Shown here: piece after piece, positions 24,176 to 51,099 of the stretch
How the letters are laid out: every line of letters starts with the position of its first letter
How positions within the stretch are numbered: position 1 is the stretch's first letter
From: a virus
DNA: 53,359 nt
IMG/VR virus record: IMGVR_UViG_3300047319_001564
Span: 1-53,359 of that record
Reading direction: 5' to 3' (one strand)
Notes under the pieces: model-generated
The model's database searches: none
What the model saw: the letters and a program-made list of their open reading frames with translations, nothing else
Told to the model about the DNA's origin: nothing
Program-made: the position numbers and the translations under genes

Positions 24176-24642
24176 TGGATTATCGCTATTGGGACTCGGT
24201 GACGTTTCTCGGATGGCTCGCCGAGGAGGCGGATAAAGCCGCTGAATGCCAACTGGTCCTCGAAGCCGCGGAAAGTGGGACAATCCAGATTGTCACGTCA
24301 GCGCTGACCATCGCGGAAGTCCTCTGGTTGAAAGGACACAAAAAAGTCCACGCCAGCCACGCGAAGAAGATCGAATCGTTTTTCAGACACAGTTGGATTA
24401 TCGTGCGCGAGGTCGATCGATTCGTCGCTGAGGACGCACGCGAACTGGTATGGAATAAGAACATCAAACCGAAGGATGCGATTCATCTAGCGACGGCACT
24501 CCGCCAAGATGTTCCGTTCGATCAGTTCGACACATTTGACGGGGACCTAATCAAGCTGTCCGGCACCCTGGGAACTCCACCGCTGACGATCGGTCGGCCA
24601 AACCTTCCTGCGAAATTGCCCTTCGAGCAAGACGAGGAATGA
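24175..24642 (+). CDS. PIN-domain ribonuclease (VapC-like)
   Basis: This 155-residue protein has the PIN pattern: an early Asp in YWDSVTFLGWL, a Glu in SALTIAEVLWL, then KPKDAIHLATAL and a final FDTFDGDLIKL, giving the acidic residues that bind metal. PIN domains cut RNA, and in toxin-antitoxin pairs arrest growth. It lies directly before the integrase gene (ATGA overlap), within the lysogeny operon, so it is probably expressed in the lysogen. Confidence 0.75.
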   Translation: MDYRYWDSVTFLGWLAEEADKAAECQLVLEAAESGTIQIVTSALTIAEVLWLKGHKKVHASHAKKIESFFRHSWIIVREVDRFVAEDARELVWNKNIKPKDAIHLATALRQDVPFDQFDTFDGDLIKLSGTLGTPPLTIGRPNLPAKLPFEQDEE

Positions 24643-25715
24643 GCCGCGGCCCACGGGAACGGATAGCGACTGGCGTCTATCGCGATCGCTATGGCATCTC
24701 CGTCAAGGTCAAAAACCGCGGCGAACCGCGCGAAGAACGCTTTCCGCGCGATACGCCGATCGAGGAGCTCGAGCGACACCAGGCCCGCATGGAATCGGAG
24801 CTGCTCGAGGACCAGGCCGAGCGCGCACAGACCGGCACAGCCGAGCCGACGCGCGGCACCTTCGCGGGCGATCTCCCACGCTACCTGAAACAGATCGCCG
24901 GGCGCTCGAGCTTCAAATCCGACCGGTCACATCTGCGCGCCTGGCTGCCACATGTCGGCACGACACGACGCAGCGAGATCAAGCCCTCGCACATCCGCGA
25001 GGCCTTCGCCGCCTGGCAATCGAAGGGACTCAGCGCGCGCACGATTCGTCATCGTCGTCGTGTGCTCCGCGAGCTCTATCAGACGCTCGACGGTGTCCAC
25101 GCGAGGCCACCACTGAAAGGCGTGAAGGCGCCGCGGCCGCCGGATCCGCATCCGATCGCCGTGCCGATCGCCATGATTCAGAAGGTCGCGAAGAGTCTGC
25201 GCTCAGGGCTTGTCGGGAAGAAACGCCACGGCCCGAAGAAAACGCTCGCGCTGATTCACTATAAAGAATCGCCGCAGACGTATGCGCGGTTCCTGGTGCG
25301 GGCGACCACGGGGCAGCGGCCTGCGCAAATCATGTGGGCGACGCCGGCGGATGTCGACTTGAAACGGCGCATCTGGTTTGTACGCGCGGCGAAGGGCGGG
25401 TATTCGGCGGCACTGCCACTCAATGGCGAGATGGTGCGTGCCTGGCGCGTCTTCATCAAGGCGAAGGCGTGGGGCTCGTTCGATGCGCGGAGCTTCGCGA
25501 AGACGCTGAGGCGCCACGGCTGGCCCGCCGGCATCAGACCGTATGCCCTTCGCTCGACGTTCGCGATCGATCACCTGTTGAAGGGTACGAGCCTCGGCGA
25601 TCTCCAGGGACTGCTTGGCCACCGGCAGATCGAGACCACACGCCGACACTACGCCTCCGTCCAGGTGGCGCTGCTCAAAAAGCAGGTCGGCAAACGGTTG
25701 CTGAAACTGGCCTAA
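24639..25715 (+). CDS. int: Tyrosine-family integrase
   Basis: This 358-residue protein has an N-terminal core-binding region (~65-145; SDRSHLRAWLPHVG, REAFAAWQSKGLSARTIRHR). Its C-terminal catalytic domain shows Arg in TTGQRPAQI, Lys in AAKGGYSAAL, YALRSTFAIDHL, LLGHRQIETTRRHYASV with the GH His and the nucleophile Tyr. Box II has Tyr where His is most common. It catalyses integration at the adjacent attP. Its proximity to the tRNA fragment at 25866 supports the role. Confidence 0.92.
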   Translation: MSRGPRERIATGVYRDRYGISVKVKNRGEPREERFPRDTPIEELERHQARMESELLEDQAERAQTGTAEPTRGTFAGDLPRYLKQIAGRSSFKSDRSHLRAWLPHVGTTRRSEIKPSHIREAFAAWQSKGLSARTIRHRRRVLRELYQTLDGVHARPPLKGVKAPRPPDPHPIAVPIAMIQKVAKSLRSGLVGKKRHGPKKTLALIHYKESPQTYARFLVRATTGQRPAQIMWATPADVDLKRRIWFVRAAKGGYSAALPLNGEMVRAWRVFIKAKAWGSFDARSFAKTLRRHGWPAGIRPYALRSTFAIDHLLKGTSLGDLQGLLGHRQIETTRRHYASVQVALLKKQVGKRLLKLA

Positions 25716-31085: not shown

Positions 31086-31511
31086 TCAGTTCAATTCATC
31101 CTCGTCGGTCCGCAGCATGCGCGCGAGCCTGTTATACCGATTCATGTTTTGTTTGGCGGCCTGGGAGTTCAGGAGCTCCGCCGCGGCCGTCTCGTAATCA
31201 CCGACGGCGATCGCGTGAATCGTCTTCGGAAACCCACGGAACCCGGAGGCGCCCAGGTTGAATCGCAGGTCGACGATCACGCGCTGTCGGACTTCGCTGA
31301 GATTTGGGAACCAGGCGAAGGTCGTCAGATCATGGATGCACTCATCAATGTCGTGATCGAGCAGCGCGAAGGCCTCCGCACTCGAGATCCCTTTGCTCTG
31401 GAGATTGCGTCCCACGCCGATCGTCGGCACGCCGAGCGCGTCGTTGTAGATCTTGAGCCTCAGACCCTCGTGCTCGACGAGCTGATGAACGAGCTTTTGT
31501 CGGTCGGTCAT
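31086..31511 (-). CDS. Endolysin, T4-type lysozyme (GH24)
   Basis: This 141-residue protein has VEHEGLRLKIYNDALGVPTI and GVGRNLQSKGISSAEAFALL, giving the catalytic Glu-Asp-Thr triad (E15, D24, T30) of GH24 lysozymes. Downstream VIVDLRFNLGASGFRGF also matches. It cuts the MurNAc-GlcNAc bonds of peptidoglycan at the end of infection. There is no signal peptide, so it needs a holin to reach the wall. It follows the holin-like gene with an overlap. Confidence 0.9.
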   Translation of the reverse strand: MTDRQKLVHQLVEHEGLRLKIYNDALGVPTIGVGRNLQSKGISSAEAFALLDHDIDECIHDLTTFAWFPNLSEVRQRVIVDLRFNLGASGFRGFPKTIHAIAVGDYETAAAELLNSQAAKQNMNRYNRLARMLRTDEDELN

Positions 31512-31863: not shown

Positions 31864-32499
31864 TCAGTTTTTGAAGTGCAGCACTTGAGCCGCCTGTGGT
31901 TTCACGTAGTACGTCGAGTTCGCCGCGTCGAGCGTGATCTTCAGCGTGATGACGTTATCGCCGGTGAAATTCGTTGGCGTGCTGACACCGCAGATCGCCA
32001 TATCGCGCAGGAAGGGGTTGTTGATCGCATGCACATTCCCCACGGTGTCGGTGATGAAGTCATAGTCGCGATCGGCGATCCAGACGTCGCTGCCCACTCG
32101 CCGACAGAAGAACCGAAAAATCACCCGATACTCGGTCGCGTCGTTATTGAAGTTCGAGACCGTACCAGACGCGCCGGCCCCCTGTCGCAATTGGACCTGT
32201 GCGCCCGCGCCGACATTCACCTTGAACGTCACGAGACCGGTCGTGCCCTTATTGTTTTTCGCCAGACAGGCAATCTCGCACTTGACCACATCGCCATCGC
32301 TCCAGGCGCCGCCAGGGACGGTGAAGTGGCAGACGTCGGTTTCCGTGACCGTGTTGTTGACGTCCGCCTTCGTGGCGGTATAGCTCGCGAGTTTGGACCC
32401 GCCGAAGAGGAATAAGAGGTTGTCCCGCAGATGGGTGTTGAGCATCGATGCGGTGACGAACTCGCCAGGAATCCACGTGCGGGGACTGGTCCACGCCAT
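31864..32499 (-). CDS. Tail fibre or tail-tip protein
   Basis: This 211-residue protein opens with TSPRTWIPGEFVTASMLNTH and LRDNLLFLFGG, the start typical of many phage fibre and tail-tip proteins. The rest is beta-rich (VCHFTVPGGAWSDGDVVKC, VNVGAGAQVQLRQGAGASG) and ends in AAQVLHFKN. The start overlaps the stop of the methyltransferase gene (TGATG). Confidence 0.7.
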   Translation of the reverse strand: MAWTSPRTWIPGEFVTASMLNTHLRDNLLFLFGGSKLASYTATKADVNNTVTETDVCHFTVPGGAWSDGDVVKCEIACLAKNNKGTTGLVTFKVNVGAGAQVQLRQGAGASGTVSNFNNDATEYRVIFRFFCRRVGSDVWIADRDYDFITDTVGNVHAINNPFLRDMAICGVSTPTNFTGDNVITLKITLDAANSTYYVKPQAAQVLHFKN

Positions 32500-33620
32500 C
32501 AGCGTTCTCCATCGAGTCGCGCAAAGAGCGGCTCGTCATACGAGTACACGAACACCTGGCGCGCGTGATCATGGATGCGGGCGCGCAGGGTCGGGATTTC
32601 CTCAAAACGACGCAGTGAGACCACCGCCGTGTCCACCGTCGGCAGATTGGCCGATCGGAGATCGGCGACCACGATCGCGGGATGTTTGGCGGCTTTAATT
32701 GGGTCGATTTCGATCCCGCTGACCGGGCGCAGGAAGGTCGAGGCAATGCGCTGCATCAACAACCCATTGCCGGCGCCGAGGTCAAGGACGGGGCCTTGCG
32801 GCGGTGAGCTCCGCAACGCCTGCAACACCATCATGTGCGCCGCATCCTGCGCCGCCACGGTTGGGAATCCGTTCTCCGTGGACACCGGCATGCCAGCCTC
32901 GGAATAGGGGAAGGCGAGGCCTCGCGCTCCCTCGGCCGGATAGGTGCGCCCGCGGCGCTGCACGATTCGCCTCTCGGCGGTATAGCCGGTGCGGGTGACG
33001 ACTTTCAGGACCGGATACCGGATTTCAGCGGCGCCGTGGAGCGCCGACCATTCGACGGGCCACTGCAACACCTCATCAATCACATCCGCCGCCTGAGGAT
33101 CCTTTGCTCGGAGGAGCGCGCGATGGGCGACGCCAAGCGCGCGCGTCGCCTCGCACGTAAACGAGCAGGGCAGGTGCATCACCCAGCGCATATCCAGCCA
33201 GCGCCCGAGGATGTTGCATTCGAGCGGTCCCGTGGTCTCGATGCCGCCGCGTGACATCGCCCAGGTGGTGTCGCCCGTGCCAGCGCCCCAGGTGGCGGCG
33301 AACGCCAGTCGACAACACGCCGGAAAGCCCAATAGGGCGCCGACTCTCTCGTCGTCGCGCGCCTGGTACGCCGTCGAGAGTGCCTTGGCCCCTGGCCCGA
33401 CCGCGAACCGATCCGCATCGACCTCGAGATAGGCGTTTCCCCACGCCTCGACACGTGCGCGGCCGAATACCAGGGCAGCCGGCCGCAGGCCCTCCGTGAC
33501 GGTCTGTAGTTCGAGGTTATGCCATGCGGCAGCTGCGCGCATCAGGCGAGGTTCCCACGCGCCGCGCGCGCGCGAGGAGGCCCACATCCGGCGACTGAAT
33601 TCGCGGCTACGCGTCGCCAT
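32499..33620 (-). CDS. GFPACC-domain / SAM-dependent methyltransferase fusion
   Basis: I start at the ATG at 33620 (MATRSREFSRRMWASSRAR), which overlaps the radical SAM stop by 14 bases; a longer frame lies inside that gene. Of 373 residues, the N-terminal ~170 contain LLGFPACCRLAFAATWG, LECNILGRWLDMRW and HLPCSFTCEATRALGVAHRA, an ordered Cys pattern that resembles DUF483-like proteins. The C-terminal ~150 hold a class I methyltransferase (PVLDLGAGNGLLMQRIA, then GIEIDPIKAAK and IVVADLRSANLP). The fusion follows the radical SAM enzyme in one unit and may act on the same substrate. Confidence 0.7.
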   Translation of the reverse strand: MATRSREFSRRMWASSRARGAWEPRLMRAAAAWHNLELQTVTEGLRPAALVFGRARVEAWGNAYLEVDADRFAVGPGAKALSTAYQARDDERVGALLGFPACCRLAFAATWGAGTGDTTWAMSRGGIETTGPLECNILGRWLDMRWVMHLPCSFTCEATRALGVAHRALLRAKDPQAADVIDEVLQWPVEWSALHGAAEIRYPVLKVVTRTGYTAERRIVQRRGRTYPAEGARGLAFPYSEAGMPVSTENGFPTVAAQDAAHMMVLQALRSSPPQGPVLDLGAGNGLLMQRIASTFLRPVSGIEIDPIKAAKHPAIVVADLRSANLPTVDTAVVSLRRFEEIPTLRARIHDHARQVFVYSYDEPLFARLDGER

Positions 33621-34914
33621 GTGGAATATCCCCATGCATGACTGTCGTCCCCGCGTCGCCGTGCAGGTCGATCCCGGCGTCGCTGTGTTGATAGCCATCG
33701 GGCGCGTCCCAATGGTCGATATGGTCGCCCGTGGTGGTGCCAGGGATTGGACGCCCGTGCAGCACGGCGACGGCCTGCTCAATCGAGAGGTTGCGGCCCT
33801 CGCCCCAGGCCTCAAGCATCGTGACTTCGATGCGTTCGAGCTCGGGCGATCGCGTAATCGGGGTCAGGCCGCGCGCGAAGAGTTCCTGTTCGGTGCGCTC
33901 GAGGAGTCGCATCCAGACGCCGCAGTGCTCCGTCCGATTGCGCCAGTCGCCATCGACCGCCGTGCCCGGGCACTGTCCTTTGCAGGCAATGAAAAACCGG
34001 CAGCCCTGGCAGCCGTTCTCGGATTGCGGCGTGTCATAAAGCACCAGCTGCCGCTCGAAGCCCTCGACGTCGGCCTTGTTCCAATCCACGCCATCTTTGT
34101 TTGTGCGCCCGCAGTTGATGTTCTCGCCGACGCCGTTCACCCCGCGTACCGCGCGCGTGGTGTAGGGGTCGCAGGCATTCCAGATGCAGGTCGTGCCCTG
34201 GCTGGTATCGCGCGCGAGGAGCAGCCGTTCCAGGTCGGAGAAGACATCGAATTGCAGCGCTGGAAATCCCTGCTGAAAGGCATGGAGCTCCAGAAAGGCC
34301 GCGACGTTCTCGTCTTCGGTGAGCGCCCACCGGCGGCGCACCTCGGGCGATTCGACTTCTAAGAGGTGGAGCCGCATGTGGCGTACGCCCAGGGTATAGA
34401 GCTCCGCGATCCACTGTTTCAATCGGTCGAGGCGTGCGCCGACGGCGTTGCCGCGATGCAGGGTGACGATCAAACTCGGCGGCTGTCGGCGTTCACACAA
34501 GCGTCGAATCGCCCATTCGCTCTGCGCTGTCAGGGCCCGTGTTTTATCAAGCGTGCCCGCCTCGCGCACATCGTTCAGCTCGTCCGGTCCGTCCATTGAG
34601 ATCCCGACGCTGACGCCATAGCGCGCGAACAGCGCCAGGTGTTCTTCGGTGATAAGCGAGCCGTTTGTTTGAATGGCGTTGCCGCCGAAGCGTTCGAGGC
34701 CCCAGCGGAACATCTCTTCGAGATCCGCGAACGGCATCAAGAGCGGTTCACCGCCGAACAGGGAGAAGCGATAGTTCTCCTGCGCCAATGCGCGCTTCAT
34801 GGCCGCCATGTCGTACCCGGGCGAGAAGTTCCCCGCCTCGCGCATGGGGTCCTCGTAACAGTACGCACACTGCAGATTGCATTTCACACCGACCGGATTC
34901 AGTTCAATGCTCAA
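33607..34914 (-). CDS. Radical SAM/SPASM peptide-modifying enzyme with HxD tail
   Basis: This 435-residue protein has the radical SAM cluster motif CNLQCAYC (C12, C16, C19), FSLFGGEPLLMP and ISMDGPDEL. It also has a full SPASM domain: GENINC, CQGCRFFIACKGQC and EHCGVW fit C-x2-C-x5-C-x3-C plus the flanking cysteines. Such enzymes modify peptides or proteins such as sulfatases and RiPP precursors. The last 40 residues (starting TTGDHIDHWD and ending MHGDIPHGDA) carry six His-x-Asp units like those of the upstream protein. The start is TTG, overlapping the stop of the HxD hub gene (TTGA). Confidence 0.9.
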   Translation of the reverse strand: MSIELNPVGVKCNLQCAYCYEDPMREAGNFSPGYDMAAMKRALAQENYRFSLFGGEPLLMPFADLEEMFRWGLERFGGNAIQTNGSLITEEHLALFARYGVSVGISMDGPDELNDVREAGTLDKTRALTAQSEWAIRRLCERRQPPSLIVTLHRGNAVGARLDRLKQWIAELYTLGVRHMRLHLLEVESPEVRRRWALTEDENVAAFLELHAFQQGFPALQFDVFSDLERLLLARDTSQGTTCIWNACDPYTTRAVRGVNGVGENINCGRTNKDGVDWNKADVEGFERQLVLYDTPQSENGCQGCRFFIACKGQCPGTAVDGDWRNRTEHCGVWMRLLERTEQELFARGLTPITRSPELERIEVTMLEAWGEGRNLSIEQAVAVLHGRPIPGTTTGDHIDHWDAPDGYQHSDAGIDLHGDAGTTVMHGDIPHGDA

Positions 34915-37070
34915 TTGGCGTCTCCGTGTGCGGTGTCACTGTGCGTGACATCGCCGTGGGTATCGGTGTGGGAGACGTCCGAGTGCGCGACGTCGCCGTG
35001 GGCGCTGTCGGCGTGCGCCACGTCGCTATGGCTCGTCCCGTCGTTATGCGCAATGTCGACGTGCGCGACGTCTGCGTGGGAGACGTCGCTGTGGGGCGTA
35101 TCGGTATGTCCGTCCTCATGGGCCTCGTCGATATGCGCGCTGTCGCTATGCCCGTCGCCGTGGAGTTGATCGGTGTGGGTGTCGCTGTGGAGATCGGCAT
35201 GCCCGTCGCCGTGGTCCTGCACTAAGGGGACGTCCAAATGCGCATCGATATGGTCGGTGTGGACATCGGTGTGGGTGTCTGAATGATCGTCGATGTGCGC
35301 CGAATCCGAATGCGAATCTCCGTGCGGCGAGTCCTGAAAGACATCGTCCGAATGCGCATCGCCATGCGTGACATCAGTGTGCGAGACGTCGCTGTGGGCC
35401 GTGTCCTGATGGACCGAATCGCCGTGCACGGCCCCGTCGCCGTGCGCCTGGTCCTGGTGGGCATTATCGGTGTGGCTGTCACTATGGCTGACATCGCTGT
35501 GGGTGTCGGTGTGTGCCACATCGCCGTGCGCGACGTCGGTATGGCCGATGATCAACCCGAACCCGAGCCGCGTACTGATGTCGAGTTCGCTCCGACCGAC
35601 GACCTCGAGCTCCCAGAACTGACGACTATCGATCGGGACCGACAACGTGAACTCTGTTTCGATATGGGTGCGGTAAATCGTTTCGCGGATGTGATCGATG
35701 AAAAAGGATTTCGAAATGCCGGTGACCACATCCACGATGCCGATCCGGTCGCTGATTTCGCGGCCCAAGCTTCGCGTCAGTTCGGCGGTATTGGTTACGC
35801 CGACCATGCGGCGAAACCCCTCCACCTGTGTGGTCGGTTCGCTGCGGGTGAAAATAATGTACTGGGCCAGTTCAATGCCGAAATTCGCGTTCGACTGATA
35901 TGGCAGATCGATGTTCAGCGGGTTGAGGCCGAAGCGGTCGATGCTGTCCTGGTCGATCTGCGTGGCCGGAATCGGGCCGTAGTCCAGCAACGCCTGCCCG
36001 CGCTGTTGCAGGACCGTCAGCCAGCCGGCCGTCACGCCGCTGAGGGTCACCGAAAATTGCGTGGCGTTGCCTGAGAGCCCCACCGTGACGGTCAGATTGG
36101 CCGTGAGGTCGACGCCGCTCCCATCCTCGGCGGCATTCGCCACGTAATCGGTCCCAGCCACCAGCGAGACCAGCGACACGGCGCCGACGCGCACATCCGG
36201 GTTGTCCGCATCGGTCCACGGGCCGAGGATGTCGACGGATTGACCAATCGCCAGTTCTAACGGTTGGTTCAGGCTGAAGAGCACCGCGGTCGTGTTTGGA
36301 CTCGGGAGCCGCGGGTGCACCGTGGTCTGCGTCGAGTTCGCGATATTCTCGGCCGAATGCGGGGCGGTGAACCCATGGGTGTTCGTGAACGTGTCCGTGT
36401 TCGTGGTGAGCTTCGTGCGACGGGTGCGGGCTTCATAGACCACCGTGCCGTCCCCGCGTTCCCACACGCGATCCAGGCCGCTCAGGGCCAAGCGATACAG
36501 TTCATCGCGGGCGCGCGTCTGTTCGTCGCGGATCCGGTCGAGGACGTAGGGGTAGACGTCAGCGCTGAGATCTTTTTCGACGGCACGTGGCTGCGAGAAG
36601 TCCGGCAGGCCATCGATGATGGTCTGAAAGACGTCGTCCCCCGTCGCATCGAGCAGGATCGGCAGGTCGTTGAGCCGCGTGCGACCCGCAATCCCCATCC
36701 ACCCGATACACTCGCACCGTACGCCTTGCGCGCGATGAATGCCAGGTTCCGGGGCGATGTAGTCCAGGTATCCGGTAAATCGTGGATACGAGGTCGCGCC
36801 GACGGTTACGCGGGCGCGCACACCGATCAAGAGTTGAAACCCTGCACGACAGTTCGCGTGATCGGGCGAATAGTACCCGACCAGGTGCGCGCTATTGGTC
36901 GAGCTGTTATTCAGGATAAATGACAACGTGCCGGAATCGGCAATACAGTCGGCGACGCCACTGCCCGGAAGGCCCCGTTCCCATTGCAGACCCTCGGCGG
37001 TCCGCCAGTCGTTCACCTGGGTCCAGCCGTTGCCTCGCCCGGAGAATTCCATTTCCAAGAGAATCGCCAC
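34911..37070 (-). CDS. Tail hub/baseplate-like protein with C-terminal His-x-Asp array
   Basis: The gene starts with GTG (37070) after AAGGGAG, just past the tape measure stop. Of 719 residues, the first ~510 look like a tail-hub protein (LSFILNNSSTNSAHLVGYY, TSYPRFTGYLDYIAPEPG, DIRE-type helices and IDSRQFWELEVVGRS), matching its position after the tape measure gene. From about residue 510 to the end the sequence is an array of HxDxx or HxDx units, about 43 His-x-Asp in total, e.g. HSDVSHADVAHVDIAHND. The array could bind many metal ions or be the substrate of the radical SAM enzyme that follows. Confidence 0.8.
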   Translation of the reverse strand: MAILLEMEFSGRGNGWTQVNDWRTAEGLQWERGLPGSGVADCIADSGTLSFILNNSSTNSAHLVGYYSPDHANCRAGFQLLIGVRARVTVGATSYPRFTGYLDYIAPEPGIHRAQGVRCECIGWMGIAGRTRLNDLPILLDATGDDVFQTIIDGLPDFSQPRAVEKDLSADVYPYVLDRIRDEQTRARDELYRLALSGLDRVWERGDGTVVYEARTRRTKLTTNTDTFTNTHGFTAPHSAENIANSTQTTVHPRLPSPNTTAVLFSLNQPLELAIGQSVDILGPWTDADNPDVRVGAVSLVSLVAGTDYVANAAEDGSGVDLTANLTVTVGLSGNATQFSVTLSGVTAGWLTVLQQRGQALLDYGPIPATQIDQDSIDRFGLNPLNIDLPYQSNANFGIELAQYIIFTRSEPTTQVEGFRRMVGVTNTAELTRSLGREISDRIGIVDVVTGISKSFFIDHIRETIYRTHIETEFTLSVPIDSRQFWELEVVGRSELDISTRLGFGLIIGHTDVAHGDVAHTDTHSDVSHSDSHTDNAHQDQAHGDGAVHGDSVHQDTAHSDVSHTDVTHGDAHSDDVFQDSPHGDSHSDSAHIDDHSDTHTDVHTDHIDAHLDVPLVQDHGDGHADLHSDTHTDQLHGDGHSDSAHIDEAHEDGHTDTPHSDVSHADVAHVDIAHNDGTSHSDVAHADSAHGDVAHSDVSHTDTHGDVTHSDTAHGDAN
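34914..35543 (-). repeat. His-x-Asp coding array (about 43 units, mostly 12- or 15-bp period)
   Basis: The DNA encoding the hub protein's C-terminal ~210 residues consists of degenerate 12- and 15-base units, with codons varied enough that the DNA itself is not a simple perfect repeat. His and Asp are kept in phase while the other positions are Ser, Thr, Gly, Val or Ala. Conservation of the protein pattern over the DNA pattern suggests selection on the protein. Confidence 0.9.
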
Positions 37071-37074
37071 TCCC

Positions 37075-39768
37075 TTAGCCGTTCATGCCCACGAGGGCAT
37101 CGCGGATCGAGCGACTGATCGTGCGCGGCAAGCGCGCGATGGCGGCTGAGAGCGCAGCGATGTCGCCGCTCGAGGAGGACCCACCGCTGAATGACTGTCC
37201 TTCCCCGCTGAAGGCGAAGTCTTCATTGCCCCTCGAAAAGAACAACGTCGGGGACGTCACACGTCCACTCCCGCCACCGGCCATCGGCACGACCTCCATG
37301 TCGCCGGTATTGGGAAAATCGCGATACCTGCTATCGTTCGGATCGAATCCCGGCGGCGCATTCACCTGCCAATCCACCGTCCCGGTCACATGCGGATCGG
37401 GAATGTTGTCGATCGCGGTGCCGAGTCCGCGGGTGATGGCATCCGTCAGCTTTTGCACGGCATCGACAATCTTCTGGAAGCCCTGCGTCATCGTTTCAGA
37501 GAATGTCACACCGGCCGCTGAGAGATCGGTGATGCTGTTGCCGTTTTCATCCGTGAGCGTCCCCATCTCCACCATGCGTTGGAGCATGGGCGCCATCGCG
37601 GCTGGAATTTCGGTGCCGGTCCTTAAGGCATCATGGACGAAAGTGTTGATCGAATCCCCCATGCGACCGAGGACGGTATCCGTTGCGATGCCAGCACCCG
37701 TCAAGACCTTGAAATCCTGATAGAGGTCTTGTGCCTGCTTGTCGAGATTTTGCCGTTGCAGGGCCGGACCGAGTTCCTCGATCGTGAAGCCATATTTCTT
37801 CACGGTATCGTCGAGGGTCTTCATCGCCTGATCTTGGAACTGCAACGAGACATTCAATTCATCGATGGCTGCTTTGTAGGCTTCTGGCGTCTTGGCATCG
37901 AGCAGATGATCGAGCGTGACACCGGCTTCATGGGCGCGTTGATTGAGCGCCGCGAGGCCGCCGGCGGCATCCACGAAGGCCTGGCGAATCGGATTGACTT
38001 GTTTCTCAGGGTCGTTGAAGAGTTTTCCAAAGAGCCCGCCGACCAGCCCGCCGAGGGCGGTGCCGAGGCCAGGAATGACCGAGCCGATCGCACTGCCGAT
38101 CGTCGAGCCGAACACCTTACTCACGCCGGTCGAGAGCGCACGCCCGACCGTGCTGCCAGCACCGGACAGGAAGCCCCCAATCGCCGATCCTGCCGACTGG
38201 AGAATGTTTCCGCCGCCCTGAAACGCGCCGACGATGACCTGGCCGAGATCATTCTTGAGGAAATCTCCGAATGTTTGGAGCCCGGCACGCGCTTGGTCCA
38301 GCGTGGGGCCCACGAATTTGATCCGATCCTCAAAGTTCTTGAGTTCATCGTTCGTAATGGGGAGCACTTTGGTGCCGAGCTTGTCCAGGCCCTCCGTGAA
38401 GGCCTCGGACGGACCGAAGGCCTCATGCTGCACATCCCGCAAATGGGTGAACGATGCGACCAGATCGATGGTGTTCTGATTGGTCCGCTTCAACATCTCC
38501 ATTTGGTCCTTCATCATGTCGTCGAAGGACTTCTGGATGCTCTCGTAGATCTTGGTCTGACGGGTCGCCGTATCCTCATTCACCCGTTGTTGGAATTCAG
38601 CTAAGTCCGTGGTCGCCTTTTTCCGCGCCTCATCTTGCTTCGCGAGTACCTTGTTGATCCGTTCGTTTTCGGTCGCGATCTCGTCAGCGCTGCCGGTCGA
38701 TGTGGGGACCTTGAGTTGTTGCGGCAGTGTCAATGGCGATTTCACACCTGCGGTCATCTGCTTCAATTGTGTGTTGAGGTCTTCCATCTCTCGGCGGAGT
38801 TGTGAGGTGGCCTGCTGCGCTGGGGTAATACCGTCGGTGACATAGTGGGCGAACGCCACTGTCGCCTCTGCGGTGTAGCCTTTCGTCAGGCGCCACCACT
38901 TCCCTATCTCATCACCCGCTTTGTCCATGGCGCGAACCGTTTCGTCGCTCATGCCAACAGTGGCGCCCTTCAGATCATCGAAGCCACGTTTGAGGGTCGG
39001 CAGGACGGCGGCGCCCTGTTTGCCAAAGAGATCGATGGCGATGGCAACTTGCTTCGCTGGGTCCTGTACTTGGCGCAACGCATCGCTGATCGCAATGAAC
39101 TGATTTTCTGGATTGAGGTTCTTGATGTCCTCGAAGGGAATTTTCAGATCCTTCAGCGCTTGGAGAGCCTTGGCGTCGCCGCCGACTAACTTGTCCTCCA
39201 TTTTCGTGATCGCACCGGTCAGATCATCAATACTGTTGCCCGCCTCATCGCCAGCGATCTGGAACTTCTGCAAGCCCTGAAGGGAGACGCCGGTTTTATC
39301 ACTGAGCTTTACGAGTTCGTCTGCGTCCGCGAGTAACGCTTTGCCGAACTCCACGACTGCGCCGATACTGAATCCGATGCCGACGGCGGCCGCCAATTGC
39401 TTGCCGGTATCAACTAATTTGCCCATCGCGGCGTCGACCGGCTTTGCAGCCTCGGCGATCTTCTGGAGATTCTCCGGTACGCCGAGGCCCAGCGCTTTCA
39501 TTTTTGCCGCGGCTTCCTGCGCCTGTGCGCCGAGCCGTTGCAGTTCCTTCTCGGTGAGCGTGGAGACGCCGCCGACTTTATCGACGGCCTGCGCCATCAA
39601 CGTCGCATCCTGAATGAGCTTCGTGCCGTTCAGGCTATTGCCAATCCGCGTGAGGGACGGAATGACTTTGTCCGCGCCGCTCGTGAGATCCTTGAGCTTG
39701 ACCTCCGCTTTCTGGACGGCGTCCTGGAAGCTGGAGAAATCAGCCTGGAATTTTGCGGAAATTGGCAT
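37075..39768 (-). CDS. Tape measure protein
   Basis: This 897-residue protein has the coiled-coil N-terminus of tape measure proteins (FSSFQDAVQKAEVKLKDL, NLQKIAEAAKPVDAAMGKL), a long helical middle, and a hydrophobic Gly/Ala-rich segment (VIPGLGTALGGLVGGLFGKL, about residues 575-600). It sets tail length and passes into the host envelope during DNA delivery. Its length suggests a siphovirus tail. The ATG at 39768 overlaps the stop of the frameshifted chaperone (TAATG), the standard arrangement. Confidence 0.9.
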   Translation of the reverse strand: MPISAKFQADFSSFQDAVQKAEVKLKDLTSGADKVIPSLTRIGNSLNGTKLIQDATLMAQAVDKVGGVSTLTEKELQRLGAQAQEAAAKMKALGLGVPENLQKIAEAAKPVDAAMGKLVDTGKQLAAAVGIGFSIGAVVEFGKALLADADELVKLSDKTGVSLQGLQKFQIAGDEAGNSIDDLTGAITKMEDKLVGGDAKALQALKDLKIPFEDIKNLNPENQFIAISDALRQVQDPAKQVAIAIDLFGKQGAAVLPTLKRGFDDLKGATVGMSDETVRAMDKAGDEIGKWWRLTKGYTAEATVAFAHYVTDGITPAQQATSQLRREMEDLNTQLKQMTAGVKSPLTLPQQLKVPTSTGSADEIATENERINKVLAKQDEARKKATTDLAEFQQRVNEDTATRQTKIYESIQKSFDDMMKDQMEMLKRTNQNTIDLVASFTHLRDVQHEAFGPSEAFTEGLDKLGTKVLPITNDELKNFEDRIKFVGPTLDQARAGLQTFGDFLKNDLGQVIVGAFQGGGNILQSAGSAIGGFLSGAGSTVGRALSTGVSKVFGSTIGSAIGSVIPGLGTALGGLVGGLFGKLFNDPEKQVNPIRQAFVDAAGGLAALNQRAHEAGVTLDHLLDAKTPEAYKAAIDELNVSLQFQDQAMKTLDDTVKKYGFTIEELGPALQRQNLDKQAQDLYQDFKVLTGAGIATDTVLGRMGDSINTFVHDALRTGTEIPAAMAPMLQRMVEMGTLTDENGNSITDLSAAGVTFSETMTQGFQKIVDAVQKLTDAITRGLGTAIDNIPDPHVTGTVDWQVNAPPGFDPNDSRYRDFPNTGDMEVVPMAGGGSGRVTSPTLFFSRGNEDFAFSGEGQSFSGGSSSSGDIAALSAAIARLPRTISRSIRDALVGMNG

Positions 39769-40549: not shown

Positions 40550-40948
40550 CTAGAACGTCGATGCCCATGTGCCGTTCGCCACGAAATTGCCGGTGATCTG
40601 CACTGCGCCAGACACGCTGGTATCCATCGAGATGTCCAACCACGCGGGTCCTGAATGGAACTTGCTCGGGGCGTTTGATGACGGATAGAGGTAGAGATTC
40701 ACGCCATTGGTGGAGGCCGCACCGGTAAAGGGCTTCGATTCGGTGTCGTCCCACACGCCGGCGAACGAGCCCTTGATGTCTGGCAGACCCTGCACGTAGG
40801 TCTTGTTCGCATCACCGAAGGCGGTGACTTCGATCTTGTCGGTGCTCTTGTCGATCGTCCACTTGTTGAGTTTGATCACGGCGGTCGCCACACCGCCGGC
40901 GCTGGTGGACAAGTAGATGACGCCATTGCGTCCAGGATACGCGGGCAT
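40550..40948 (-). CDS. Major tail tube protein
   Basis: This 132-residue protein (MPAYPGRNGVIYLSTSAGGV, AVIKLNKWTIDKSTDKIEVT, AFGDANKTYVQGLPDIKGSF) matches the beta-barrel pattern of small tail tube proteins: WTID followed by a VTAFGD loop and a FxGVWDD strand. It lies directly upstream of the chaperones and tape measure. It stacks as hexameric rings to form the tail tube. Confidence 0.75.
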   Translation of the reverse strand: MPAYPGRNGVIYLSTSAGGVATAVIKLNKWTIDKSTDKIEVTAFGDANKTYVQGLPDIKGSFAGVWDDTESKPFTGAASTNGVNLYLYPSSNAPSKFHSGPAWLDISMDTSVSGAVQITGNFVANGTWASTF

Positions 40949-42051: not shown

Positions 42052-42623
42052 GAGGCCTCCCGCACATGCGCCGGCAGATCGTCGCCCACTTCCGCAATCA
42101 CATCCTGCCGCCAGATGATGTCCGAGCGCAGCCAGCCGACGCTCTCGAGAAAGGCACAGTCGCCACCGATGAAGCCGCCCCAGATCCCGAGCTTCTGCGG
42201 GACGTTCGGGATGAAGAACATCGGCGTGCCGACATTGCCGAAGATGACGGCCGGTTCCCGCCAGAGGACCCGACCATCGGGATAGCGCATGCGAAATACC
42301 ACCGGCCGATCGGGCGTGCGCGTGACCGCGTCGGCCATCGCCGCCCGGGCGCCTGGGACCTGGCGATCATCGTCGTCGAGGAAGGCGAGATGCGTGCCGC
42401 GGGCCAGGGGCATCGCGGCGTTGCGCTCCGTGCTGCCCCAATCGTGGCCCCGCGGACAGTGCAGAAACCGAACCCCGCGTTCCACGTCCGATGGCCGGAT
42501 ATAGGGATTCAGCTGCGCGAGCTCGCCGACCACGAGAATCTCATCGCCGGGCCAGAGCTCGATCGAGTCGAGCGCCTCGAGCAGGGACGGCCGCCCGAGT
42601 GACGGCAGAATGATGCTGATCAT
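42048..42623 (-). CDS. GT2-type glycosyltransferase (short)
   Basis: This 191-residue protein begins ISIILPSLGRPSLLEALDSI and holds a DxD-like motif (HLAFLDDDDRQVPGARAAM), the nucleotide-sugar site of GT-A family 2 transferases. The C-terminal part is short. It is joined by overlaps to its neighbours. Its acceptor is unknown. Confidence 0.8.
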   Translation of the reverse strand: MISIILPSLGRPSLLEALDSIELWPGDEILVVGELAQLNPYIRPSDVERGVRFLHCPRGHDWGSTERNAAMPLARGTHLAFLDDDDRQVPGARAAMADAVTRTPDRPVVFRMRYPDGRVLWREPAVIFGNVGTPMFFIPNVPQKLGIWGGFIGGDCAFLESVGWLRSDIIWRQDVIAEVGDDLPAHVREAS

Positions 42624-46012: not shown

Positions 46013-47419
46013 TTACGCCTGAGTCGCGTACTTGATCGGATGCGTGCCGGCGTCGAGCAGATCGCCGTCATGGCGCGAAAGCGCCAGGAAGGCCACCTGG
46101 CCGAGCACGGCGTACAGCTCATCGAGCCTGATGACGGTCACATCCCGCACGTCTCGGATGATGTACTTCGAGAAATCTCCGAAGAGGATTGACTTGACGC
46201 CCGTTGCCGGGGTCGTCATCGACTGATTGATGACGTAGGGATACCCGAGAATGGTGTCCGCCTGGCCCAGCGCCAAGCCCGGCACCCACAACGGTTGGCC
46301 CGTGGTATCGCCCGAGTACTGCAATACCTTGATCTTCTTGAGCATCTTCAGCCCGCCGTCATGGAACATGAACCGGCCATTGGGCCGATAGGCCGGGTCC
46401 ACCGAGTGCACGAGATCGACGATGTTGTCGTAGCTCGCGGAAGCCACGCCCGAGAGCGTGACCGAGCTGGACGTCGCGGCCGTGACCACGCCGTTCGGCT
46501 GTGAACCGGTGCCGGTGGTGAAGTGATCGTTCGTGATCCGCGCAATGCGGTTCCCGAGGGCCTCGCCGAGAAAGGCATTGGCGTTGATCGACGTGTCCTG
46601 GAGGAACTCGATGGACGCCAGGATGTACTTCGAGGAGTATTTCCACGCATCGAGCACGAGCTGGCCGAAGGTCATTTCCAGCTCATTCGAGGTCGTGTTT
46701 TCCCCGATGATCTCGCCCTTGTTGCCAGTGTCGTTCGTGGTCGGAATGGGCAGTGGCCCACCGGTGGCCGTGCGAATGACCGTGGCCACCTGGCGCATGC
46801 CGGCGTAGTTCAAGAGGGCGACTTCGAGCGATTTCATCGTTTCGTCGGCCGTGGTGTAGCCGCCGGTCGTCGTCGTGGACTGGAGTCCGGTCAGGGCGGC
46901 GCGCTCTTCCTCCTGCTTCTCGCGCCACATCCGGAAATCGTCCTCACTGGCCCGCAGGCCCATGCCGTACGGCATCGTCGGCTTCAAGGCCGGCCCCAAC
47001 CGGATGGTGAGCTGCTTCGACTGGGGATTGATGCCGCAGCGTTTCGCCAGGGCGATCTGCGTATCCGTCAGGGAATCCGCCACCGGCGATCCGGCACACA
47101 TCCAGGCCCGCAGCGCTTCGCTGCGGTCGCGGTCGGTGATCTTTCCGAATGATCGAGTGTCCTGCTGCTGGCGGGTATCGACGGGATTCGGCTCGCTGCG
47201 TCGCCCATCGCCGCCAGCGGTCACTGATTGCGTCTTCTCGATGCGCTGGATCTGCTTGGTCAGCTTCTCGATGTCGGCGTGAATCGCCTCGAATTTGGTG
47301 TCTTCCTCTTTCGTCAGATCACGTTTTTCGGTGGCGGCCAGCGTCAAGAGATCTTCGGCCTGTTTCGCCAGCATGCCTTTCTGCTGGCGGAGTTCGATGA
47401 GATTTTCGGTGAGATCCAT
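46013..47419 (-). CDS. Major capsid protein, HK97 fold with N-terminal delta domain
   Basis: I start at the ATG at 47419 (MDLTENLIELRQQKGMLAKQ). The first ~110 residues are a coiled-coil delta (scaffold) domain (EKRDLTKEEDTKFEAIHADI), followed by DRSEALRAWM and the HK97-fold body (ATVIRTATGGPLPIPTTNDT, DAWKYSSKYILASIEFLQDT, NQSMTTPATGVKSILFGDFS). The scaffold is removed by the protease encoded upstream. The 468 residues fit the family. A strong hairpin precedes the gene. Confidence 0.92.
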   Translation of the reverse strand: MDLTENLIELRQQKGMLAKQAEDLLTLAATEKRDLTKEEDTKFEAIHADIEKLTKQIQRIEKTQSVTAGGDGRRSEPNPVDTRQQQDTRSFGKITDRDRSEALRAWMCAGSPVADSLTDTQIALAKRCGINPQSKQLTIRLGPALKPTMPYGMGLRASEDDFRMWREKQEEERAALTGLQSTTTTGGYTTADETMKSLEVALLNYAGMRQVATVIRTATGGPLPIPTTNDTGNKGEIIGENTTSNELEMTFGQLVLDAWKYSSKYILASIEFLQDTSINANAFLGEALGNRIARITNDHFTTGTGSQPNGVVTAATSSSVTLSGVASASYDNIVDLVHSVDPAYRPNGRFMFHDGGLKMLKKIKVLQYSGDTTGQPLWVPGLALGQADTILGYPYVINQSMTTPATGVKSILFGDFSKYIIRDVRDVTVIRLDELYAVLGQVAFLALSRHDGDLLDAGTHPIKYATQA

Positions 47420-47618
47420 GAGTCGTCCCTCAGTCGTGCGATGAGGAACGGCCCGAGACACATGGCAGGAGCGCGACCCACGCACGAACTCAAAATTGAG
47501 ATTCGTGTGCGTATGTGGGTGCGCTCGATCAGCGTCGAGGCGCGACCAGGATTAACGCTTGGGCCGGTTGACTGAGCAGCGTCAGTCGCCGGCCGGCAAG
47601 CTCACTGTGTAAGTGGAA
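47420..47618 (-). promoter_or_regulatory. Non-coding leader of the capsid gene with strong hairpin (47471-47523)
   Basis: This is the only ~200-base gap in the head genes. Within it, ACCCAC...GCAC...GAA pairs with TTC...GTGC...GTGGGT around an inner CTCAA-TT-TTGAG stem, giving a long hairpin. It is not followed by a T-run, so it is not a classical terminator. It may stabilise capsid mRNA, which must be made in large amounts, or mark a processing site. Confidence 0.55.
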
Positions 47619-47822
47619 CTATTCTGTAGACGAATGCCCGCGTTGAGGAGTTTTTGACGCCGAAATAGCCGCCCGGCGGATCAGCGAAGGAATCGAGGTC
47701 CCACGCTGTCGCGCCAATTGGTCGAGCCGATCGTAATCGCCGGCCGAGATCCGGACGCTGACGCGTACGGCATCTTCGACCTCGCGCGGACGACCTACTT
47801 GGCGAGTTGGGTCCTGTGCCAT
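47619..47822 (-). CDS. Ribbon-helix-helix DNA-binding protein
   Basis: This 67-residue protein (DPTRQVGRPREVEDAVRVSV, RISAGDYDRLDQLARQRGTS, IPSLIRRAAISASK) has the ribbon-helix-helix pattern of small repressors. It lies between protease and major capsid genes, an unusual place for a regulator, and overlaps the protease gene by 28 bases. It could control late transcription. Confidence 0.65.
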   Translation of the reverse strand: MAQDPTRQVGRPREVEDAVRVSVRISAGDYDRLDQLARQRGTSIPSLIRRAAISASKTPQRGHSSTE

Positions 47823-48373
47823 TTGCGTCGCATTTCCACGCTATTGCTCGACCCGAAGGTGTCACGCCTAAAGGCCTCGAGCGACCGCATCGCCACGTCG
47901 ACGTTCGTCTGCTCATAGGCCGGAAAGGTCACGACGCTGACTTCTGACAGCTTCATGTCCGTGACGGTCCGGATCGGAATCTTCCCCTCATAATTCCATT
48001 CATCCGCCAGCGTCCGGAATCCAAAGGACATGCCAGAGACGTCGCCGCGCGCCACACTGCGCATGATGTCGGCCGCATAGGAAATCTGGGTGTCGGGTTC
48101 GATCGAAACACGCAGACCCGTCGTATCTTTCCGGAGGCCGAGCGTGCCCGCGCGCACGCGGCCCAGAATTTTGGCGCTGTCATGATCGACCAGCGCCCGC
48201 ACGTCGGTGCCTTCCTTCAGGGCGCGATCGACCGCATCGGGACTGATGATCTCGCGGAAGCCGCCCAGGTCGACCGAGAGCGAATTGAAGACGATGGCAT
48301 AGCCGTTCAGGCGCTTCGCATCCTCGGCGCTCACGCGACATTCCGTAAACGAGCGACGCTCTAGGTCCGACAT
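47795..48373 (-). CDS. Prohead maturation protease (HK97-type, U35)
   Basis: The start at 48373 (MSDLERRSFTECRVSAEDAK) overlaps the portal stop. The product has LNGYAIVFNSLSVDLGGFRE, VRALVDHDSAKILGRV with the catalytic His, and VSGMSFGFRTLADEW with the catalytic Ser, as in HK97 gp4. It trims the delta domain of the capsid protein during head maturation. The gene order portal, protease, capsid supports this. Confidence 0.88.
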   Translation of the reverse strand: MSDLERRSFTECRVSAEDAKRLNGYAIVFNSLSVDLGGFREIISPDAVDRALKEGTDVRALVDHDSAKILGRVRAGTLGLRKDTTGLRVSIEPDTQISYAADIMRSVARGDVSGMSFGFRTLADEWNYEGKIPIRTVTDMKLSEVSVVTFPAYEQTNVDVAMRSLEAFRRDTFGSSNSVEMRRKWHRTQLAK

Positions 48374-50928
48374 GCGGCCTCCCCTTCTTGTATCAAGCGA
48401 TCGGCCACGCGTTCGGCCCGTTCTGTTTCCCATCGCGTCAGCAGGCGCGCGAGCGCCGCGGCCATTTCCTCACCATCGTCCGTCTCGGCGACATCGCTGA
48501 GACTGCGCCGGGATTCATCGATGTGTCGCGTGACTTCTCGCTCGAGCAAAGCCTCAGCATCCAGCCCGGTGCAGGCCGCCCACGCCAGGAGTACGGGCCG
48601 CAGGGCGGCGCGGCAGGCGTCCTCATGGAGCGGATAGAACCGATCGATCCACCCCTGAAGTTTTTCTGGGGTCTGCTGCGCTTTGCGGGCCCGCTCACAT
48701 TCCCGATACAGCAGCCGCTCAATCGTGTCGACCATGAGCGCCCGATGCGAGCTCCGGACGGCCGCCAGGCGCGCTTCAGCAGCCCGCTGCTGCTGTTCCC
48801 GAACGGCCGCGGCCGCGTCCAGCGCTTTGGCTTTCGTCTCTTCGCTCACAGCCCGAGCTTCTGTCTCGAGCAGGGCCTTCTGGAGTCCCTGCGCCATTTC
48901 TTCGTATTTTGCGACTTGAGCCCGAAGCTCCGCATTCAGTGCTTCCGATGGCGTCAACTTCAGCAGCAGTTCATTACGTTCCCCCTCGAGCGTCAGGAGC
49001 TGCGCCATGAGATTAGCGGCCCTGTCGGAGAGTTCAGTATGCGACGTCTTGGCGGCATCCCGTTCACGTTCGGCCACGCCCAGCATGACGTCGGTATCGT
49101 TTTTGGCCGCCTGCGCCTCCGTGAGATCGGCGGTCAATGCGGCCCGTTCCTTCTCGAAGGCGATCCGATGGGCGTCTGATTCTTGAATCAGTAGGGCCCG
49201 CGCATCGGCGACGTCAGCGATCCGCACGGCCTCGAGCGCGGCGAGCGCCGTGGTTTTCTCTGCGACGGTATCAGCCTTCGCGACCTGCGCCGCTTCGAGA
49301 TCGCGCACGAGCGCTGCCCGGTGCGTCTCAAAGACTGCCCGTTGTTGTGCCGCTGATTCGGCGGCCGCGAGACGAAGCGCGTCGAGATCTGCGGCATGTT
49401 TTGTGTCGAGGACCTGGATCGCCTCTTGTGTTGACTGGATCGTTTGCTTCGCGATCTCGCGATCGGTTTCCAGACTGGCGACCTGGGCGGTCAATTCCCC
49501 GATCCGCGCCTCAGCCTTGACGGCACGCTCGGTCTCGGCCTGAAGCCTCGTGGCATGCTCGGCCATCCGCGCCTCAATCTCGGCCGGATCCGCGGCAGTC
49601 TTCGGCGGCGCCGGCACGATGTTCGGCAACGCCGGCGGCGCCGCCTTGGTCTTCGCGATCTCGGCGTCAATGATCTCGTCCAACCTGTCGAGCGGGACCA
49701 TGTTCCGCATGACAAACAGACGATCTCCACCTGGGAGCGGATCGAGGTTTTCGCGATCGCGTATTTCGTTCGGCGTGATCCCGCCGACATTAAACTGCGC
49801 GGTATAGAGCGCTGAACGACCGGCCGCATCAACACTGAGCAGGTCCTTGGTCTCATGCTCGATGAACTGGATTTTCCGTTCCATCGAGTTGATCAGTTTG
49901 CGTTCGAGCTCCTGTTCCCAGAGCTCGAGCCAGGGCCGCAGACAGGACGTGTAGTAATCGAGATTTTGCTGTTCAACGTTGCTGAATGTGGCATCCGCGA
50001 GATCGGCGAGCTTATGCGGGGGCATCTTGAACCACCGGGCGATCTCTCGAATCTGAAAGACCCGCGTCTCGAGGAATTGCGCATCGTTCGGCGGGATCCC
50101 CATCCGCGCGTACGTGGCATCGTTGTAGAGGGCGAGTAATTTGTGCGCGCGCTCGACGCCCTGGTGCTGTTTATTCAGGACGTCCATGACATTGTCTTGC
50201 GCGGGCTGGGTCGGCCTCGGTCCCTTATACGAAATCACGCCGCCGAACGTCGCGCCGTTCCCAAAAAAGGTGGACCCGAATTTTTCCGCCGCGAGGCCGA
50301 GCCCCATCGATTCTCTGGCTTTCGCGACCACGGAATACCCGGTGATGCCGTCGAATCCCAGCCCGGGCACGTGAATCATGTCGGCGGCGTCGAGCACCGT
50401 CGGCGACCCGGTATTGTTGGTGACCCGGTACTGCAGCCCGCGGCCTGCACGAAAGGGTGTCACGCGGTCAGGCGTGATCGGCCACAGGGCGACAGGCCGA
50501 TTGCCACCATCGCGTTCGATTTCTGAATAGCCGTTCCCCCAGGTCAGCGCATGCGCCTGGATCGTGCGGCGCCAGACCATCGTTGACATTTCTGGATTCG
50601 GCGCATCATGGAGCAAGGGATACAACCGGTGATCCTCGAAGCGATCTTTGCCGCCATTCGGTAAGCGCTTATAGAGCATCAAGGGGAGCGACGCGATGTC
50701 ATCAGCAATCAGGGAGACCGCCGCGAAGACGGCTGAATAGTTGAGGGCGGTTTCTTCCGTGATCGAGACGCCGGCGCTTGTAGGCGTGCCACCCACATAG
50801 CCAGCGAAATCTTTGGCGCTCGTCGACCATGGCCCGAGCGTCCGCGATCGGATCGCATAGACCATTCGCTGAAACCAAGTCGCCGGCGCTTGCTGATGAA
50901 TGACACGAATCAGATCAGTGCGGGCCAT
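48361..50928 (-). CDS. Portal protein with ~430-residue coiled-coil extension
   Basis: Residues 1-425 form a HK97-type portal: NYSAVFAAVSLIADDIASLP, LYPLLHDAPNPEMSTMVWRR, WGNGYSEIERDGGNRPVALW, and FQIREIARWFKMPPHKLADL, then NFNVEQQNLDYYTSCLRPWL-like segments. The usual portal ends near here. An additional region of ~430 residues follows, mostly coiled coil (~440-690; ETERAVKAEARIGELTAQVA), and then a helical end (EKLQGWIDRFYPLHEDACR). Frame and overlap with the protease gene show that it is one reading frame. Confidence 0.85.
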   Translation of the reverse strand: MARTDLIRVIHQQAPATWFQRMVYAIRSRTLGPWSTSAKDFAGYVGGTPTSAGVSITEETALNYSAVFAAVSLIADDIASLPLMLYKRLPNGGKDRFEDHRLYPLLHDAPNPEMSTMVWRRTIQAHALTWGNGYSEIERDGGNRPVALWPITPDRVTPFRAGRGLQYRVTNNTGSPTVLDAADMIHVPGLGFDGITGYSVVAKARESMGLGLAAEKFGSTFFGNGATFGGVISYKGPRPTQPAQDNVMDVLNKQHQGVERAHKLLALYNDATYARMGIPPNDAQFLETRVFQIREIARWFKMPPHKLADLADATFSNVEQQNLDYYTSCLRPWLELWEQELERKLINSMERKIQFIEHETKDLLSVDAAGRSALYTAQFNVGGITPNEIRDRENLDPLPGGDRLFVMRNMVPLDRLDEIIDAEIAKTKAAPPALPNIVPAPPKTAADPAEIEARMAEHATRLQAETERAVKAEARIGELTAQVASLETDREIAKQTIQSTQEAIQVLDTKHAADLDALRLAAAESAAQQRAVFETHRAALVRDLEAAQVAKADTVAEKTTALAALEAVRIADVADARALLIQESDAHRIAFEKERAALTADLTEAQAAKNDTDVMLGVAERERDAAKTSHTELSDRAANLMAQLLTLEGERNELLLKLTPSEALNAELRAQVAKYEEMAQGLQKALLETEARAVSEETKAKALDAAAAVREQQQRAAEARLAAVRSSHRALMVDTIERLLYRECERARKAQQTPEKLQGWIDRFYPLHEDACRAALRPVLLAWAACTGLDAEALLEREVTRHIDESRRSLSDVAETDDGEEMAAALARLLTRWETERAERVADRLIQEGEAACRT

Positions 50929-51099
50929 TTAATGCACCTGCCTGCGCGTCACGCGCACCTGTTGGCCATTCGGCATCTTGACCAATTCAGATTCTCCTGG
51001 TTTGAGTGTGACGACCACCTGACCGAAGCCGCCGCGCGGGTCTGGGTACGGGATCGCGATGCTCGGCTCGTCGATCACAATCTCGCGCGGAGTATTCAT
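50929..51099 (-). CDS. Small protein between terminase and portal
   Basis: A 56-residue frame (MNTPREIVIDEPSIAIPYPD, then GFGQVVVTLKPGESELVKM, ending TRRQVH) starts with an ATGA overlap on the terminase stop and ends just before the portal start. The short, beta-like, basic-tailed protein is probably a head component or a packaging accessory. Function unknown. Confidence 0.65.
   Translation of the reverse strand: MNTPREIVIDEPSIAIPYPDPRGGFGQVVVTLKPGESELVKMPNGQQVRVTRRQVH

Follow-up and report, generated by a model that had tools for sequence, protein, structure and literature searches.

A radical SAM/SPASM enzyme of a tailed phage ends in a conserved tail of the same HxD unit that is repeated in its presumed substrate

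Why would a radical SAM enzyme encoded by a phage end in the same three-residue unit, His-x-Asp (HxD), that is repeated many times in the protein encoded next to it? The question is raised by virus record IMGVR_UViG_3300047319_001564 (IMG/VR), whose 53,359 nt were analyzed over the whole length and are called the window here. It contains terminase, portal, head protein, tape measure, lysozyme and integrase genes, and judged from this gene content, the window is a tailed phage, probably a temperate one in view of the integrase gene. On the minus strand, the tape measure gene is followed by the gene of a 719-aa tail protein with 43 HxD at its C-terminus, then by the radical SAM gene, and then by the gene of a DUF483/methyltransferase-like protein, with overlaps of a few bases joining the latter three. 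The features are as follows.

34911..37070, minus strand: phage tail protein of 719 aa and presumed substrate, its ORF immediately following the tape measure gene; homologous proteins in loci L001 and L002
34914..35543, minus strand: array of 43 HxD at the C-terminus of the 719-aa protein
33607..34914, minus strand: 435-aa radical SAM/SPASM enzyme, beginning with a TTG that overlaps the array gene's stop codon; Pfam Radical_SAM, 4.6e-13
33607..33732, minus strand: C-terminal HxD tail of the enzyme (ORF translation), residues 395-435 plus stop, six HxD, predicted to be disordered (pLDDT <50)
32499..33620, minus strand: 373-aa DUF483-like protein, methyltransferase-like in its C-terminal part; start codon ATG at 33620, within the end of the enzyme gene
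37075..39768, minus strand: tail tape measure protein (PHROGs phrog_9483, 3e-18), context
31086..31511, minus strand: phage lysozyme (PF00959, 1e-12), context
46013..52823, minus strand: head module with major head protein, portal and terminase large subunit (PHROGs 1.3e-65, 7.1e-118 and 3.5e-138), context
24639..25715, plus strand: integrase (PHROGs phrog_1, 4.1e-26), context

Three further ORFs lie between the head and tail genes, of which the first (40948-42051) is glycosyltransferase-like by Pfam and the other two (42620-43303 and 43300-43929) are perhaps glycosyltransferase-like too, as read by eye only; glycosylation of virion proteins is possible in this phage.

The assignment of the enzyme to the radical SAM superfamily is clear, as it scores 50.1 bits with PF04055 (cut-off 29.5) and has the CX3CX2C motif, whose cysteines C12, C16 and C19 are invariant in 84 relatives. 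SPASM domains bind auxiliary clusters through the pattern C-X9-15-G-X4-C ... C-X2-C-X5-C-X3-C ... C. The enzyme has this pattern as C248-X14-G263-X4-C268, C302-X2-C305-X5-C311-X3-C315 and C331, and these seven cysteines, together with C243, are likewise invariant in the 84 relatives. An AF2 model (pLDDT 89.9) matches the fold of SPASM enzymes, the closest being anSME and ChlB. The best NCBIfam neighbors include the cyclophane-forming AmcB, YhhB and XyeB, with scores far below the family cut-offs (61.1 of 425 bits for AmcB), and within NCBIfam the enzyme thus falls outside the curated 3-CyFE families (AmcB, YhhB, XyeB, GrrM/OscB and FxsB). As a radical SAM/SPASM enzyme, it most likely modifies peptides, and these relationships suggest the chemistry that is considered below.

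The sequence-only reading had noted six HxD units in the last 40 residues of the enzyme (33607-33730, including the stop), and we could confirm this. The units start at residues 398, 401, 410, 418, 427 and 432 (HID, HWD, HSD, HGD, HGD and HGD); they are the only HxD of the enzyme, and every His of the tail belongs to one of them. When the whole protein was shuffled 20,000 times, no 43-aa segment had more than 3 HxD, and when only the last 43 residues were shuffled, again 20,000 times, 5 HxD were obtained in eight cases and 6 never. The enzyme and the protein encoded at 34911-37070 are the only ORFs of the window with at least 3 HxD per 40 aa. The tail is conserved in loci L001-L003, with 75% (L001) and 73% (L002) identity of the enzyme to that of the window, and the last 36 codons differ from those of L001 by 9 synonymous and 7 amino-acid-changing substitutions, and from those of L002 by 10 and 8, respectively. 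The synonymous changes rule out that the tail originated as an out-of-frame artefact.

For a broader comparison, we used 50 viral and 50 cellular complete enzymes that represent 90%-identity clusters from two scans seeded with this enzyme family, which gave 69 viral-contig loci and 77 loci of species genomes, the latter from the best 80 of 88 cellular relatives. Altogether, 183 enzyme ORFs included 158 complete ones in 116 clusters, of which 16 came from the array scan described below and are left out of the two sets; L070 in the viral set is a weak homologue. A tail, defined as at least 2 HxD after the SPASM domain, is present in 38/50 viral enzymes and, among the best 80 of 88 relatives, in 7/50 cellular enzymes. 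The earlier view that the enzyme and its presumed substrate have one type of unit in common was therefore right, and it holds for most viral relatives. In a tree built from 115 enzyme cores, the tail state requires a minimum of about 7 changes, compared with a mean of 38 for shuffled labels, and the tail is hence ancient in the viral enzymes, most of which have kept it; it was lost in two viral clades and is present in a few cellular enzymes. In 20 disjoint enzyme pairs, changes had occurred at 12.6% of the aligned His and 9.6% of the aligned Asp positions of the tail, as compared to 28% for x and 50% for other tail residues. Judged from these substitution patterns, the tail is kept by selection.

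This bears on the possibility that the tail has no role and arose as a by-product of evolution, when part of the array became joined to the enzyme by readthrough, fusion or exchange. Such a joining would be easy, because in 32 of the 38 tailed viral loci the enzyme gene follows immediately after the array gene (within 60 nt), and the existence of enzymes without a tail also agrees with it. We nevertheless regard it as unlikely, since H and D of the tail are more conserved than x and the linkers, and since the tail has been retained over most of the tree, in members down to about 30% identity. Furthermore, the exchange with the adjoining array that had been proposed from the window alone does not find support: the own array is the best match of a tail in only 1 of 47 cases, the mean fractional rank of the own array is 0.37, where chance would give 0.5, with rank 4 of 58 for the window, and in the window exact DNA matches do not exceed 12 nt. 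The tails rather form a distinct sub-type with the consensus HGD..HGD.HGDHTD. Glycine occupies the x position in 56% of 291 viral tail units but in 15% of 2118 viral array units, and the motif HGDH[TNYSW]D, present in 41/60 tails, occurs 191 times per 1000 units in tails and 4.8 times in arrays, which makes it about 40 times more common in tails. Two loci have tandem enzyme genes, two each (L050, 8001-11448; L197, 10391-13315), and the two tails in L050 have 12 and 25 HxD.

In the AF2 model of the enzyme, residues 395-435 have pLDDT values below 50, so that the tail is predicted to be disordered, and neither docking of the tail nor an active-site contact is seen. A flexible C-terminal segment with the substrate motif could in principle act as a pseudo-substrate with an autoinhibitory or regulatory function, blocking the active site until it is displaced by the array or by the DUF483 protein. 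The lack of a predicted active-site contact in the model speaks against this, and tails with up to 25 HxD, as in L050, resemble handles more than plugs; we therefore consider a pseudo-substrate function improbable.

It had also been stated that related enzymes without a tail that are still paired with HxD proteins would contradict a docking function, and such enzymes do exist. In 7/50 viral cases, the enzyme has fewer than 2 HxD although there is an HxD array in the locus, and the same holds for 24/50 cellular enzymes (best 80 of 88 relatives), 9 of which are fused to DUF483. Because tailless relatives also pair with HxD proteins, the tail must be an accessory rather than a recognition determinant; it is unnecessary for the pairing in general, but it may still help.

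What, then, is the unit that tail and array have in common? The 719-aa protein of the window has no match to a Pfam, NCBIfam or PHROGs family at E-values up to 0.1, and searches with the array proteins against these three databases gave nothing useful; from gene order, we infer that it is a tail-tip or hub protein. In 98 array ORFs, 2874 of 2980 His are followed by D or N at position +2 (2732 Asp and 142 Asn), a pairing that is partly circular as array regions were defined by HxD density. The statistics for Y/F/W, Asn and Pro were not subject to this selection: among the 548 Asp that lack a His at −2, Y, F or W takes this position in 259 (47%), compared with 5-8% at every other offset tested, some of these controls using the same sequences, and Pro is found at x in only 1 of 2732 HxD, although it makes up 5% of the array residues. 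The linkers vary and mostly have 0-6 residues. The same enzyme family is found beside arrays of 37 FxN (L004), 16 HxN (L048) or 12 YxD (L051), the triplets varying among HxD, HxN, YxD, WxD and FxN, and the array motif covaries with the enzyme clade. From the His/Asp pairing, the Y/F/W at −2, and the FxN, HxN and YxD arrays, it follows that the array unit is aromatic-x-Asp/Asn. In L004 (2908-3942), HxD is replaced by mostly PFxN.

This generality also matters for the idea that the HxD segments of tail and array bind metal or self-associate, in which case the tail would let the enzyme co-assemble with the fibre for another job. HxD is plausible as a metal ligand, and a tail of this kind could bring the enzyme into the fibre. 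However, the same family pairs with the FxN array of L004 and with the YxD- and WxD-rich arrays of L051 and L063, which would be poor metal ligands, and the association is with a family of peptide-modifying enzymes, which makes this explanation quite unlikely.

With respect to a comparison with RiPP precursors, which are short peptides consisting of a leader and a core that is cleaved off, the array of the window ends a 719-aa protein; some cellular loci (L101, L105) have small ORFs of 70-100 aa with 7-11 HxD. In the Acidobacteria loci L101, L104, L105 and L106, paired ORFs of 70-112 aa with 7-11 HxD are found directly upstream of enzyme-DUF483 fusions, and these are likely small precursor peptides. 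Bacterial proteins of 930-1410 aa, several of which have similar N-termini, carry C-terminal HxD arrays in L075, L087, L091, L097, L102, L107 and L135; those of L075 and L091 have no Pfam or NCBIfam family of note. In L025 (10876-12327) and L032 (10536-11744), another protein encoded downstream has a few HND/HGD units and is possibly a second substrate.

The third component, the DUF483-like protein, matches DUF483 (PF04467) weakly in the window (17.5 bits, E 0.0042; Pfam cut-off 25), the homologue of phage Cumys being annotated as DUF483, and its methyltransferase matches are weak as well. In most related loci, a homologue is encoded next to the enzyme and frequently includes a methyltransferase-like domain, and in 14/50 cellular cases DUF483 is fused to the enzyme (best 80 of 88 relatives). 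Among the enzymes from these 80 of 88 relatives, tail and fusion never occur together (tail in 0/14 fused and 7/36 unfused cellular enzymes), yet this is not significant (p = 0.17), and we did not retain the idea that the tail substitutes for the fusion. The HxD tail is also no general tag of module proteins, as 0/134 DUF483 ORFs end in one. An AF2 model of a DUF483 protein (L017, 5749-6705; pLDDT 92.7) gave no confident fold match in the PDB, the best being 2guk (Z 6.2 over 102 residues, model 27-144), and a sequence search likewise gave no relative in the PDB. The motifs P-x-C-C and P-C-(x)3-C are almost invariant, and the model possibly represents a new fold with a metal site.

An array protein is encoded in the enzyme locus in 44/50 viral and 31/50 cellular non-redundant cases (the latter from the best 80 of 88 relatives), and a DUF483-like protein in most. 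The module of enzyme, aromatic-x-Asp/Asn array and DUF483-like protein is therefore widespread, being found in phages and in many bacterial phyla. In the converse direction, viral contigs were scanned at the DNA level for four HxD in HxDxx register, which gave at least 120 stretches and at least 50 loci with a non-enzyme ORF of at least 10 HxD. Among the matches listed, varied arrays (x entropy of at least 1.9 bits, a cut picked after viewing the data) have the enzyme in the locus or record in 33/38 cases, the whole-record check covering 23 records. Low-complexity HxD repeats do occur in viral contigs, yet they have the enzyme in 0/12 cases among the matches listed, and we rejected a simple tandem-repeat artefact on this basis. 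The five varied arrays without the enzyme, again among the matches listed, are L232 at a contig end and L171, L200, L222 and L228, which share one protein type: a phage protein of 363-368 aa with 12-13 irregular HxD and no such enzyme in the records searched (for L228, judged from the locus only); perhaps this protein is modified by a host enzyme.

Among annotated phages, tblastn found close relatives of the enzyme (50-53% identity) only in the Thermus phages phiMa, Cumys and phiLo. For Cumys and phiMa, an "rSAM module" consisting of a radical SAM gene, a protein of unknown function and a DUF483 gene was described in 2024, with no known use and DNA modification only as a suggestion in the parts of the article available to us (PMC11437467). 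It is the same module as in the window: the unknown protein has 53-54 HxD, and the enzyme has a tail of four units. Two phiLo proteins have 72 and at least 90 HxD, respectively. The HxD proteins of these cultured phages are annotated as hypothetical only (L013, 6961-7992; L012, 6964-7992; L014, 13807-17145). The terms "HxD", "RiPP", "cyclophane" and "post-translation" and any mention of repeats are absent from the available text of PMC11437467. That the module modifies DNA and the repeats are incidental is very improbable. The published suggestion refers to homologues near deazapurine genes in some cyanobacteria (PMC11437467, available text). Evidence to the contrary comes from the adjacency of enzyme and array protein in the viral and cellular loci, the 33/38 enzymes at blindly found varied arrays among the matches listed, and the covariation of array motif and enzyme clade.

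Which known chemistry comes closest? In the available text of PMC11002830, triceptide cross-links are formed between residues i and i+2, known pairs including Trp-Asn/Asp, Phe-Asn, Tyr-Asp, His-Ala and His-Arg, and the triceptide enzymes (XncB, OscB, MscB, YxdB, HaaB and YhhB) are, as here, radical SAM/SPASM enzymes encoded beside a substrate with an aromatic-x-(N, D, S, R, A) motif. The arrays conform to this motif, and their FxN, HxN and YxD units match known pairings or come close, but a His-Asp pairing is not among the examples given there. In contrast to the short precursor of triceptides, tens of mostly His-x-Asp triplets are found on large virion or secreted proteins, and the module has a DUF483 partner and an HxD tail on the enzyme. 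A repeated motif that is modified many times by a single radical SAM enzyme is also known from the TvgB/TvgA poly-cyclopropylglycine system, though with another motif (TVGG) and another chemistry; the word "phage" is absent from the available text of that article (PMC9062424). By sequence profile, ChlB (PDB 9gm3, 9gmc) is the second-best solved relative of the enzyme (1.1e-18) and also among the closest folds, but the identity over the structural alignment is only 17-18%. We know of no HxD tail on ChlB. The His-Xaa-Ser (Hxs) system has His-x-acceptor repeats as well, with Ser as the acceptor and two paired maturases. Its radical SAM maturases (named as in NCBIfam) thus resemble our enzyme in the type of repeat, but the acceptor here is Asp/Asn, and no Hxs cut-off was reached in NCBIfam; HxsB scores 30.7 bits with the relative in L091, at a cut-off of 370. 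As to ChlB, the enzyme forms several cyclophanes per peptide according to a title cited in PMC12636437, and it is fused to an alpha-KG hydroxylase domain in work cited in the part of that article available to us.

From these relationships, we propose that the enzyme would form a bond between the aromatic residue, in most cases His, and the beta carbon of the Asp or Asn at position +2. It is likely that the array triplets are cross-linked by the enzyme in this way, and many of them in the C-terminal array of a tail-tip or fibre protein would then form a chain of small rings, a "poly-triceptide" fibre. The 40-residue tail of the same triplet would be a flexible, substrate-like handle that is itself modified and/or bound by an HxD recognizer, either the DUF483 protein or the growing fibre, and that would prevent the enzyme from leaving a substrate that has tens of sites. 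That the tail serves as such a handle for docking or processivity on a cross-linking enzyme, and is probably also modified, is a reading that we hold with moderate confidence. Enzymes with a tail adjoin longer arrays (median 38 versus 16 units in 42 and 33 loci, the cellular ones from the best 80 of 88 relatives), both in viruses (38 versus 20) and in cells (24 versus 14; best 80 of 88 relatives), which fits a handle on a long substrate, but these statistics ignore descent, and a corrected paired test comprises 2 supported pairs and has no power. Against the handle stands L006, in which an untailed enzyme is encoded beside an array of 62 HxD. The arrays beside untailed viral enzymes are also poorer in His (median 0.78 versus 0.93, again ignoring descent).

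In the open PMC literature, to which our search was confined (subscription papers lay outside its scope), we found no paper on HxD arrays paired with this enzyme. As far as this literature shows, the tail is a real, conserved and previously unremarked feature of a peptide-modification module of phages and bacteria, and it points to a novel means by which an enzyme could keep hold of a many-site substrate. A more far-reaching scenario remains speculative: in several phage groups, the stalk of the tail tip or fibre could consist of tens of three-residue aromatic-Asp rings, with an enzyme that cross-links its own tail, rides the chain as a processive clamp and perhaps ends bound to the fibre, and bacteria could apply the same chemistry to large secreted or phage-tail-like proteins. 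If the proposed function is true, a directly testable protein modification would replace the only published guess about the module, DNA modification, and Cumys and phiMa, Thermus phages in culture in which a single protein has 53-54 HxD, would be an abundant and heat-stable test system. The tail would then offer a simple case in which the motif that an enzyme acts on also serves it as a handle on a multi-site substrate, and radical SAM cross-linking would, beyond making small peptides, serve to harden structural proteins of virions.
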